IMG/VR virus record: IMGVR_UViG_3300048592_000247
Span: 1 to 38,553 of that record
DNA: 38,553 nucleotides
Origin: a virus
Direction: 5' to 3' (one strand)
The notes under the pieces were generated by a model. The model worked only from the letters and a program-made list of their open reading frames with translations. It was not told the DNA's origin and did not search any database. Of this stretch, positions 4,454 through 30,351 are shown in pieces (the stretch's first letter is position 1; every line of letters begins with the position of its first letter). Both the position numbers and the translations under genes were made by a program.

Positions 4454-4585
4454 TTATTCGCTTGGTGAATAGAATAAATCCTGCATTTTCCTAATCATTT
4501 GTCCGTCCGCCCCGGTTCCACACCGAATGCGATTGGAAGTTTTGAATTTCATCCCATTCACGCCGGGATGTTTGGCGGTGGTCAT
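4454..4585 (-). CDS. Very small basic protein
   Basis: A 43-residue ORF starts at ATG 4585 and overlaps the TGA of the preceding gene as ATGA. The product begins MTTAKHPGVNGMKF, continues NRIRCGTGADGQMIRKMQ and ends in YSPSE. The coupled start, codon use like the neighbours and the otherwise empty 180-nt gap support a real gene. No function can be proposed. Confidence 0.5.
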   Translation of the reverse strand: MTTAKHPGVNGMKFKTSNRIRCGTGADGQMIRKMQDLFYSPSE

Positions 4586-4830
4586 ATTTGCGACATCGCT
4601 TCGTCGTGCCAGGCGTCGAGCCAGGCTTGTTCGAGGGCATAGTATAATTCGTCTGAAAGATCGTCGGTCATATCCGTTGCGGTGCCGTCCTCATTCAGGA
4701 CGTTCACGCAACGAATATCGGCGCTTTCTTCCTCTGCCGGGTCTTCCATTGTGGCGGCGTAGCCGGGATAACGCACGGCGGTAACGCGGTATGTAAGGCC
4801 GTCGTGGATGATTATGTAGGTGCGTGTCAT
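4582..4830 (-). CDS. Small acidic hypothetical protein, first gene of the recombination operon
   Basis: The product has 82 residues and is strongly acidic. It starts MTRTYIIIHDGLTYRVTAV, probably a beta-hairpin, followed by an acidic linker (EDPAEEESADI) and a helical end (ELYYALEQAWLDAWHDE). The ATG at 4830 lies about 25 nt from the -7 box of promoter module 2. Small acidic early phage proteins can mimic DNA or bind host factors, but there is no motif here to support either. Confidence 0.65.
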   Translation of the reverse strand: MTRTYIIIHDGLTYRVTAVRYPGYAATMEDPAEEESADIRCVNVLNEDGTATDMTDDLSDELYYALEQAWLDAWHDEAMSQI

Positions 4831-4945
4831 ATCGTTTGCGTTTTAATTACTCCACAAAGATGCAGTAAACACAAATACCATCCTAATATTTGTACTGGTA
4901 TTTTTCAACGAAATGAAAATTTAACATTTTCGTGGTATAAATAAA
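4831..4945 (-). promoter_or_regulatory. Early promoter module 2
   Basis: On the minus strand the segment reads TATACCA, GTTGAAAAATA, TACAAATATTAGGAT, then TTTACTGCATCTTTG and GGAGTAATTAAAACG before the ATG at 4830. CATCTTTG (4855-4862) is a near-consensus Bacteroidota -7 box. The last 40 nt are almost identical to module 1. It drives the operon that ends with the RecE-like gene. Confidence 0.65.
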
Positions 4946-4972
4946 AAAAGCCCCGGCGTAGTGCCGAGGCTT
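4943..4972 (-). terminator. Rho-independent terminator before promoter module 2
   Basis: Plus-strand agccccggc (4949-4957) pairs with gccgaggct (4963-4971) around a short loop. The minus strand ends in a run of seven T, and the plus strand also ends in T5, so it may work in both directions. It directly abuts the attC-like site at 4978-5040. Confidence 0.8.
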
Positions 4973-4977
4973 TTTGC

Positions 4978-5040
4978 GCCTAACTGTCGCCTGCCGTTCA
5001 ACCGGCTAAGCGCCGGACGACGGCAGGCTTGGAGTTAGCC
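4978..5040 (-). repeat. attC-like site A (structured inverted repeat)
   Basis: On the minus strand GGCTAAC (5040-5034) begins and GTTAGGC (4984-4978) ends a 63-bp imperfect palindrome. Inside, GCCTGCCGT pairs with ACGGCAGGC, capped by CCGGC-GCTTA-GCCGG. GTTAGGC fits the integron core site GTTRRRY. The site begins 5 nt after the stop of the 117-residue gene. The apical hairpin is shared with the element at 5428-5494 while the middle stem differs but still pairs. Confidence 0.6.
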
Positions 5041-5045
5041 AAAAC

Positions 5046-5399
5046 TTAATCGGATACCACTTGACACTCTGAAATGTCATAGGTTTTTTCGTAGCCCTTC
5101 CCATCGGTCACGATTAGGTCTAAGTGTGATGAATAATAGCCGTTGTTTGAACCGTATCCTGGAATGCGGACGGGGTGTCCACTAATTGGTTTTAGGGCTA
5201 TTCCGTAGCCGTCAATTCGTTCAAAAAAATCATCACTGGTTAAGTCAAATTCAAGCCCCTCAAAATCCCCTAACGTTAAGTCATCAAGGCTTAAATAATG
5301 GTTTTCGCAGCAATCTTGTTCGTGATTTGAATACAACTTCACGCCGTTGTCAAACTCAATCGAATCAGAGTCGAGTTTTATTACTTTCAAATTCTTCAT
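5046..5399 (-). CDS. Cassette-borne protein with DCCE motif, function unknown
   Basis: The product has 117 residues and is acidic. The most striking feature is HEQDCCENHY (about residues 26-35), followed by LSLDDLTLGDFEGLEFDL, DFFERIDGYGIALKP and VRIPGYGSNNGYYSSHLDL. This pattern resembles small uncharacterised proteins seen in phages and environmental bacteria (possibly the DUF7448 type; by memory, not checked). The clustered Cys, His and acidic residues could bind a metal. The gene is bounded by two similar attC-like palindromes, its stop 5 nt before one and its start 29 nt after the other, exactly as in an integron cassette. The leader is A/T-rich with no clear Shine-Dalgarno. Confidence 0.75.
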   Translation of the reverse strand: MKNLKVIKLDSDSIEFDNGVKLYSNHEQDCCENHYLSLDDLTLGDFEGLEFDLTSDDFFERIDGYGIALKPISGHPVRIPGYGSNNGYYSSHLDLIVTDGKGYEKTYDISECQVVSD

Positions 5400-5427
5400 G
5401 TTGGATGTGTTTTAAATTTGAATATTC

Positions 5428-5494
5428 GGCTAACCCTGCTTGCCCGTACACCGACCGGCTATGCGCCGGCGCGACGTACAAGCCGCAGTTAAAC
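5428..5494 (-). repeat. attC-like site B (structured inverted repeat)
   Basis: On the minus strand GTTTAAC (5494-5488), which fits RYYYAAC, opens a 67-bp imperfect palindrome that closes with GTTAGCC (5434-5428). GCTTG pairs with CAAGC and TAC with GTA, capped by CCGGC-GCATA-GCCGG. GTTTAAC overlaps the TAA stop of the 141-residue gene. The closing GTTAGCC is the exact complement of the GGCTAAC that opens site A, as expected for the two ends of one cassette. Confidence 0.6.
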
Positions 5495-5914
5495 CGTCTC
5501 AACCGTAAACCACTCCTCCACCCGGATACCCGGCAACTTCCGCACGGTTTCAATATCGAATATCCCTTTTCTGATATTCCACAGCGTCCGAAGCGAGCAG
5601 GGATAATCCGGGTCGAAATTCTCAACCCAAAGCGAAAATCCCCGCGATTCAATTTCGGCCTTAACCATCTGGTACACCGCTTCGCCGAACTCTTGGCGGG
5701 TGAGCAGGGTTTTTGGTTGCGGGGCTGGCGTGTCCGGCTTGGCGCGCCGGGGCCGGGGCGGATAAGTAGCGTTAATGCCCTTTTGCGCTTCTTTCGCTTC
5801 TTCGTAATCCGCGAACGGGCCTATGTTTTCACCGGTGGACAGGCGGCGCGTGGAGAGCGTGTAGCGCTGATTGTGGTGTTGGCGGGTGAGGTAGTAGCGG
5901 GTTATGCTATCCAT
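5489..5914 (-). CDS. Hypothetical protein with Pro-rich linker and HTH-like C-terminus
   Basis: The product has 141 residues. Residues 1-50 are a small domain (RYYLTRQHHNQRYTLSTRR, then FADYEEAKEAQK). A Pro/Arg linker follows (YPPRPRRAKPDTPAPQPK). The C-terminal half has TRQEFGEAVYQMVKAEIESR and CSLRTLWNIRKGIFDIETV, which resembles a helix-turn-helix placed as in phage DNA-binding proteins. The start overlaps the preceding gene by 13 nt. The TAA stop lies inside the first core of attC-like site B. A regulatory role is possible but unproven. Confidence 0.65.
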   Translation of the reverse strand: MDSITRYYLTRQHHNQRYTLSTRRLSTGENIGPFADYEEAKEAQKGINATYPPRPRRAKPDTPAPQPKTLLTRQEFGEAVYQMVKAEIESRGFSLWVENFDPDYPCSLRTLWNIRKGIFDIETVRKLPGIRVEEWFTVETV

Positions 5915-6090: not shown

Positions 6091-6102
6091 ATTTTAGTTT
6101 CA

Positions 6103-6189
6103 TTTTTTCGCCCTTTCACCTGGGCCAGGTTGCCGGAATACCCGGCGTGATCTTTCTTATAGTGTAATGTTGAAACCCGGCGCAAACCT
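6103..6189 (-). ncRNA. Structured leader RNA, copy 1
   Basis: On the minus strand the element starts TTTGCGCCGGG and ends TGAAAGGGCGAAAAAATG. In between it holds the hairpin GCCGG-GTATT-CCGGC, then AACC, then the palindrome ACCTGGGCCAGGT. CGCC near the 5' end can pair with GGCG near the 3' end to close a multi-branched structure. A near copy lies at 6482-6568 and a diverged one at 28997-29093, each just upstream of a short gene. Confidence 0.5.
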
Positions 6190-6224: not shown

Positions 6225-6473
6225 TTAAGACAACGAGGTAGTTTGTCGTATTACCTGTATTTTCGGAAGCGGCATATACTCGTCGCTCCACGCTATTTTG
6301 TGGGTTTCAGGTTCGTTGGTATCCTCGCTTTCCGGGAACCAATGCGCGGTCCCGAACCTGAAGTACTCTGCCACCACACCATCTGCGTCGGCCTGGTACC
6401 GATGCACAGAAGTTTTACCGTAAGCAGACACCTCTATTTGGATAGGGTCGCCTTTCTTCACGCTTTTGTTCAT
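6225..6473 (-). CDS. Small hypothetical protein behind structured leader 2
   Basis: The product has 82 residues from ATG 6473 (MNKSVKKGDPIQIEV). A GTG at 6500 in the same frame would add nine residues but would start inside the structured leader, so I reject it. The sequence looks like a small beta-barrel (KGDPIQIEVSAYGKT, then a Trp- and Glu-rich end). No family is recognised. A four-codon frame (MKTK) precedes it and overlaps its start. Confidence 0.55.
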   Translation of the reverse strand: MNKSVKKGDPIQIEVSAYGKTSVHRYQADADGVVAEYFRFGTAHWFPESEDTNEPETHKIAWSDEYMPLPKIQVIRQTTSLS

Positions 6474-6481
6474 TTTGTTTT

Positions 6482-6568
6482 CATTTTTTCGCCCTTTCAC
6501 CTGGGCCAGGTTGCCAGAATACCCGGCGTTACCCTTCTTATAGTGGAATATTGAACCCGGCGCAAACT
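6482..6568 (-). ncRNA. Structured leader RNA, copy 2
   Basis: This is almost identical to copy 1 over about 55 nt nearest the gene. The hairpin here is GCCGG-GTATT-CTGGC, a C-to-T change that keeps the pair as G-U. AACC and ACCTGGGCCAGGT follow, then TGAAAGGGCGAAAAAATG. The far half (GCGCCGGGTTCAATATTCC) is also conserved, with small changes. Confidence 0.5.
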
Positions 6569-29383: not shown

Positions 29384-30351
29384 AGCAGGTCGGATATATT
29401 ATTAACAATCGAAATATACTTCGGCTGGTACTTGCATACCCGTAACCCCTCCGCAACGGCGAAAAACCAAACATCCGGCCCGAACGCATCCGCAATCTTT
29501 TGCGCCTCCGGAAATTGCGCCTCGTAGGCGATAAGCGAAAAAGCGGCTTTCCCGGCCTCGGTCAAATACGAACCGAAAATGTGCTTTGCGTTCGGGTCGA
29601 TCAACCAAACGGGGTCGTTTTCGCGGTCGCCACGACAAAGCACGTTTGTCGTACTTAGGTCGCCATGAAAAAACGTCGCATCGTGCGCCATTTCTGCAAG
29701 TTTCGCAACAACTTCCAGCGTTTGCGGCGATGCGCCTGGTATGTCTTTCGGGATGTTGTCAATGTAGGTTTTATACTCATATTTTCGCTGTGGAATAATG
29801 CCCCAAAATTCGCGCAAAATGCGGATAAAGTTGGCGGCATTGGGTTTGTCAACCTCGTATATCATTTCAGTAATAATACACTCATCATTACAGAAAAGAA
29901 CGTCAGGCACACGGATACCCCGCAAACGCGCCTCTTTGTACCATTCAAACTCAAATAATGCCGTTTGGCAATGTTTAATCGCCATTGTTTCCGTGAAAAC
30001 AATACGGTTGCCGGTAAAATCCGACGTTTGCGGCGCAAAGGGGTCAAACGGGCCTATAGTCTGATCATCAATATACAAATTTGCGTATTCTTTCTGAAAA
30101 GAAAGCGCATCGTAAGGAACGGCGTACTTTTTCAACCAACCCCGAATCAACGCCCCGTACCGGCGTTCCTTTTCGTGTTCCTTTAGCCCGGCTTTGCCGC
30201 CCCTGGCCGTGACGATCTTAATGACCGTATCGGGCTGCTCTGTGCGTAGGCGCTGCAAGCGGGCAATTAATTGCCCGTTCGGCCTTAACAGGCTAATGTG
30301 GCTCGAATTGTCGAGGGCTAAGGTGTTATCAAAGTCAACGGCTACAATCAT
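29380..30351 (-). CDS. HAD phosphatase/APH-like kinase fusion
   Basis: The product has 323 residues from ATG 30351, which has GGAGG 10 nt upstream and overlaps the preceding stop as ATGA. Residues 1-100 are a HAD domain: DFDNTL (5-10, nucleophile Asp6), VTAR (47-50), a Lys-containing stretch near 87, and YIDD (93-96). This order resembles capsule-biosynthesis phosphatases of the BcbF/EcbF type. Residues 112-323 resemble aminoglycoside/choline-kinase-like phosphotransferases, with HGDLSTTN (229-236, catalytic Asp) and IDPN (251-254) in place of the metal-binding Asp motif. The kinase probably phosphorylates a small substrate later activated by the neighbouring nucleotidyltransferase. The actual substrate cannot be read from sequence. 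Confidence 0.78.
   Translation of the reverse strand: MIVAVDFDNTLALDNSSHISLLRPNGQLIARLQRLRTEQPDTVIKIVTARGGKAGLKEHEKERRYGALIRGWLKKYAVPYDALSFQKEYANLYIDDQTIGPFDPFAPQTSDFTGNRIVFTETMAIKHCQTALFEFEWYKEARLRGIRVPDVLFCNDECIITEMIYEVDKPNAANFIRILREFWGIIPQRKYEYKTYIDNIPKDIPGASPQTLEVVAKLAEMAHDATFFHGDLSTTNVLCRGDRENDPVWLIDPNAKHIFGSYLTEAGKAAFSLIAYEAQFPEAQKIADAFGPDVWFFAVAEGLRVCKYQPKYISIVNNISDLL

Follow-up and report, generated by a model that had tools for sequence, protein, structure and literature searches.

A putative solitary, integrase-less cassette of the integron type in an uncultivated tailed phage

Clusters of attC sites without an integrase (CALINs) were reported in phages in 2023, the Polaribacter phage P12002L among them, and phage-borne attC sites, one of which stems from a Bacteroidota phage, recombined with IntI1 in an assay of that study (Qi et al. 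2023, PMC9892861). That phages may move cassettes, as was proposed in an earlier note on the DNA studied here, had in principle already been demonstrated by that study, also for a Bacteroidota phage (P12002L). Phage CALINs consist of one or more genes between attC-like palindromes in a phage that lacks an integrase. The P12002L site at 30005-30059 has a loop (CATTAAAACGA) that also occurs in array sites of three loci analysed here (L005, L006 and L017). Elsewhere in P12002L (L064, 38032-38939), the DNA methyltransferase gene gp54 is enclosed by a pair of attC-like sites whose boxes are 4/4 complementary, apart from the methyltransferase region at 29-33 kb. Classical integron cassettes generally have R-box-like ends and a palindrome on the 60-bp scale, the gene stop is located near a box, and consecutive boxes are complementary.

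This work describes a locus that resembles both systems in these respects. It is located in the 38,553-bp record of an uncultivated virus, which is referred to here as the window and encodes portal, terminase and RecT-like proteins. We read positions 4978-5494 as a probable solitary cassette of the integron type in a tailed phage that lacks an integron integrase of its own, delimited by an attC-like site (site A) and a second attC-like site (site B). This reading is based on the structure of the locus, its paired boxes, the absence of the block from a close relative and the presence of its gene family in longer phage arrays. Most likely, the unit is a further example of the integrase-less phage cassettes known since 2023. 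Unlike the phage CALINs, sites A and B have neither the loop mentioned above nor the classical AACA...CGTT spacers, and they enclose one gene only. Unlike classical cassettes, they are missed by a model of classical attC sites, and the spacers and the motif beside the boxes differ. The gene itself is a member of the DUF7448 (PF24240) phage proteins; most of the relatives identified here are encoded outside cassettes. A Bacteroidota host of the window phage, as suggested previously, is plausible. In a limited set of open-access texts, neither a recurrent DUF7448 cassette, nor long phage arrays, nor reversed polarity was found described, and DUF7448 was absent by name. The features of the locus are the following.

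4582-4830, minus strand: next phage gene past the cassette, 82 aa.
About 4841-4928: promoter-like region before the 82-aa gene, kept in the related phage L048.
4945-4975: intrinsic-terminator-like hairpin AAAAAGCCCCGGCGTAGTGCCGAGGCTTTTT beside site A, common to the window and L048.
4978-5040: site A, attC-like imperfect palindrome of 63 bp, the best attC-like site in the window (fold z about -5); plus strand GCCTAAC-TGTC-stem-CCGGC TAAGC GCCGG-stem-TTGGA-GTTAGCC.
4984-5433, minus strand: putative cassette of 450 bp with the sites taken in gene direction, running from T5433, which follows G|TT in site B, as far as G4984 in site A, based on the complementarity of GTTAGCC (B) and GGCTAAC (A).
5035-5488: alternative cassette of 454 bp under the opposite polarity.
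5046-5399, minus strand: cassette gene encoding a 117-aa DUF7448 protein, based on the PF24240 match and homologs.
5428-5494: site B, attC-like imperfect palindrome of 67 bp with a weaker fold and extra unpaired bases in one arm; plus strand GGCTAAC-CCT-stem-CCGGC TATGC GCCGG-stem-CGCA-GTTAAAC.
5489-5914, minus strand: P0002, a phage gene of 141 aa that is shortened at site B, based on comparison with the L048 orthologue.

The earlier note described two palindromes in the same orientation around a single small gene (5046-5399, minus strand), and the sequence agrees with it on their positions, their orientation and their box sequences. Read in gene direction, site B is GTTTAAC...GTTAGCC and site A is GGCTAAC...GTTAGGC. 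GTTTAAC and GTTAGGC match RYYYAAC and GTTRRRY exactly, while GGCTAAC and GTTAGCC are one base off each; the AAC/GTT core is present in 4/4 boxes. The stop positions are also as described: the cassette gene stops 5 nt from site A, and the stop of the gene at 5489-5914 (minus strand) falls within the first box of site B. GTTAGCC of site B and GGCTAAC of site A are indeed exact complements at 7/7 positions, as the ends of one circular cassette have to be. Among 400 shuffled versions of the window, one contained two such sites within 1.5 kb of each other whose R'/R'' positions were complementary at 4/4.

The two sites differ in strength. For site A, the folding energy is -20 to -21 kcal/mol, with a z of about -5 and a stability reached in 0/200 shuffles, and its score of 31.0 with a box-plus-stem scanner is the highest of the window, shuffles getting to 25. 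Site B folds weakly (z -0.8 to -1.5), and its score of 22.8 when taken alone is at the genome-wide chance level; the case for site B therefore rests on its position and its match to site A. The shared apical hairpin was recovered as claimed: the apical 15-mers of A and B are identical at 14/15 positions, which was equalled in 4/5000 shuffles of A and B.

An orthologue of P0002 was found in one contig only (L048/L122), with a protein identity of 92%. This related phage has neither palindromes A and B nor the DUF7448 gene. Its P0002 continues for about 22 codons past the end point in the window and is followed by the same terminator-like hairpin, whereas in the window these last 22 or so codons are absent and the stop codon is provided by GTTTAAC of site B. 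In the alignment, identity breaks at GAGACG|GTTTAAC (window) versus GAAGCG|ACAAAAG (L048), where site B begins; the homology break is no more than about 1 bp away from the outer edge of this site. On the other side, conservation with L048 resumes at the terminator, at a distance of 3 bp from site A. The window has about 524 bp in place of about 92 bp in L048, and an additional antisense gene is present further along in L048, which points to a replacement with one sharp edge and not to a clean insertion. In the comparison for presence or absence of exactly 4984-5433 that the earlier note proposed, L048 is without the block, but about 92 bp were exchanged. The nearest TerL relatives (within L049-L062) begin just upstream of TerL and so should not extend to the locus. 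No matching cassette box was found next to site A or upstream of P0002, a search for relatives of the 82-aa gene downstream of the cassette gave none, and an Rfam scan of the whole window gave no match. Two minor observations concern the same pair of phages. The loop of the terminator-like hairpin is inverted between them (window 4945-4975 versus L048 6516-6544), and a 29-nt repeat (93% identical) is present in intergenic DNA of the window (6091-6119 and 6472-6500) as well as in L048 and is perhaps a shared regulatory element.

The earlier statement that no integrase is present was upheld, as PF00589 (phage integrase family) has no match in the 38,553-bp record, which leaves no intI for a complete integron. 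A tyrosine recombinase was not found in the other cassette phage records either. Among 296 sampled genomes of the Bacteroidota, the phylum of genome G005, 84 encode an integron integrase above the curated cut-off. In the mechanism that we consider most likely, the IntI integrase of the infected host would fold single strands of the palindromes into hairpins and cleave the box at G|TT (or AA|C). As a small circle, the gene would move among attC sites, host arrays and other phages, and a host integron integrase probably brought it in this form into the phage or between phages. We infer the action of a host IntI on sites A and B, the past circle and the continued mobility.

One sub-case of the solitary-cassette reading is that the block is a relic that originated in an integron array and has since become fixed, with sites too degenerate to recombine. 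It is consistent with the presence of a single cassette only, the poor fold of site B, the two of four boxes that are off consensus, the absence of an integrase and the shortening of P0002 at the junction. The R'/R'' complement is still perfect, however, and the stem of site A is strong, which suggests little decay. We consider a relic possible but on balance doubtful, its probability overlapping with that of the solitary cassette as a whole.

A covariance model (R1) was built from 32 classical attC sites (class 1, Vibrio and Shewanella), using the arms only with the loops removed. Controls were recovered, namely class 1, Shewanella and host sites, including two host sites outside the training set. 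With filters off, R1 gave no match to sites A and B at E ≤ 10, and by sequence they are therefore not classical attC sites. The phage arrays described below, which obey the box rule, were missed too. Since these arrays fail R1 yet pass the box rule, the failure reflects the model more than the cassette idea. One half of the refuting condition that the earlier note set, no match to an attC model, did occur but is no fair refuter. Its cassette interpretation is well supported by the breakpoint relative to L048 at the margin of site B and by the DUF7448 genes in phage arrays; the missing match to the classical attC model counts against it. These results suggest that such phage arrays are undercounted when attC sites are sought with classical models.

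The 117-aa product of the cassette gene matches DUF7448 (PF24240) with 33.9 bits, against a gathering cut-off of 27 (E 4e-8), and has a predicted all-beta structure (pLDDT 93.6). A fold search with this model retrieved no related solved structure; its only kin were other DUF7448 phage proteins, and no defence family matched the protein. Relatives were identified in 44 viral contigs, 3 cellular contigs and 4 phage records, and none were found in plasmids. In the phylum of G005, DUF7448 is present in 1/395 genomes, namely G005 itself, the source of L045. DUF7448 is a widespread phage protein, and the majority of the relatives identified are encoded by ordinary phage genes that do not belong to cassettes. 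No similarity was observed between the window and L021.

The search for this protein in other genomes, as proposed earlier, led to relatives within cassette arrays of other phages. Complementary GTT.../...AAC ends surround a DUF7448 gene at seven non-redundant loci (the window, L001, L002, L003, L006, L017 and L045), each with p ≤ 0.005 versus shuffles. A phage-like contig (L006/L007) has 13 attC-like sites in 10 kb, of which 11/12 neighbour pairs are 4/4 complementary; the array spans 4507-10126 in L006, is the same in L007, and mostly comprises genes without a known family. L002 has six attC-like sites with 5/5 neighbour pairs obeying the complement rule, and its record contains terminase, portal and tape measure genes and has repeated ends. 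L019 is Peternella_1, a cultured Mu-like flavobacterial (Winogradskyella) phage (PMC8776804), in which three attC-like sites give 2/2 pairs that obey the rule. L017 has one site pair, which is 3/4 complementary. In total, R'(i) and R''(i+1) are 4/4 complementary in 18/19 neighbouring pairs of L002, L006 and L019, while shuffles of L006/L007, L002 and L019 contain about no attC-like sites. Most array units with a same-strand ORF hold one gene, the main ORF ending 1-37 nt before the next box. A portal gene is also present in the record of L005; the hallmark genes of L002 and L005 came from PHROGs, and searches of cassette phages with single Pfam families for portal and terminase were negative. 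The apparent lack of 3' attC sites in the arrays was partly an artefact of an over-strict scanner, as a complete site of 132 bp follows the gene in L006. In Peternella_1 (NC_062754), the three sites are located at 4085-4966 of L019 before the DUF7448 gene, among genes annotated only as hypothetical proteins; this phage may be listed in the supplementary tables of Qi et al. (PMC9892861).

Homologous DUF7448 units recur with unrelated flanks. In the related units L001/L045 (92%) and L017/L019 (93%), the unit is common and similarity is lost close to the boxes. The similarity of both pairs stops at the AAC of the downstream box, where a classical cassette should continue through the attC site. 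In the DUF7448 tree, cassette and non-cassette forms are intermixed, and 4-5 state changes are needed. The apical hairpin of A and B has two matches in viral contigs, which have no attC features and look fortuitous, and one match in 385 genomes of G005's phylum. Within these viral contigs and genomes, the hairpin type of A and B was not found in cassette arrays.

Sites A and B could also be gene-end hairpins with an ordinary role in transcription, either as terminators or as RNA-stabilising stems, the boxes and their complementarity being coincidental. Both sites are indeed located at gene ends and adjoin a true terminator-like hairpin, the fold of site B is weak, and the classical attC model gives no match. 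This explanation nevertheless seems unlikely to us, as both sites lack a T-run and are distinct from the actual terminator, paired boxes together with a common apical hairpin are improbable, and close relatives of the gene are located in arrays with the same box rule. Another hairpin-guided mobile unit, such as one moved by IS200/IS605-type single-stranded DNA transposition or a REP-like element, would fit hairpins on either side of a single gene without an integrase, but it is highly improbable given that the R-box complement rule in 18/19 neighbour pairs and one-gene units with a stop just before the box are features of integron arrays.

Returning to the solitary integron-type cassette, its polarity was compared with that of the arrays. 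The array sites displayed in L006, L002 and L019 and both true L017 sites read AACG...TGTT in gene direction, with the longer spacer at the 5' side. This motif is the reverse complement of the classical AACA...CGTT, and 0/32 classical attC sites start with AACG. Four arrays beside host integrases of the same phylum (L120, L115, L102 and L112) were set against the phage arrays, and in the clearest cases (L102, L112 and mostly L120) the sites run with the genes. Judged by motif and spacer length, and with few host arrays for comparison, this contrast suggests that phage cassettes carry their genes opposite to the attC polarity. Neither site A nor site B shows a clear motif; with lengths of 5/4 and about 4/3, their spacers lean to the same polarity as the phage arrays.

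A wider and only tentative idea, which we hold to be rather unlikely, is that small phage genes form a common pool among Bacteroidota phages, in the shape of integron-type cassettes of a separate lineage with attC sites that are opposite to the genes and missed by the classical model; the window unit would be one member of this pool, and host integrases would move it in trans. Should the cassette be mobile, integrase-less phages would keep and exchange accessory genes through host integrases, and the integron cassette pool would be linked with phage genomes. The DUF7448 genes of L006 and L010 are 94.4% identical from the ribosome site to the stop, the copy of L006 being located in the array and that of L010 in an ordinary gene row. 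One family that is found both as a cassette and as an ordinary gene offers a concrete case for how phage genes become cassettes.
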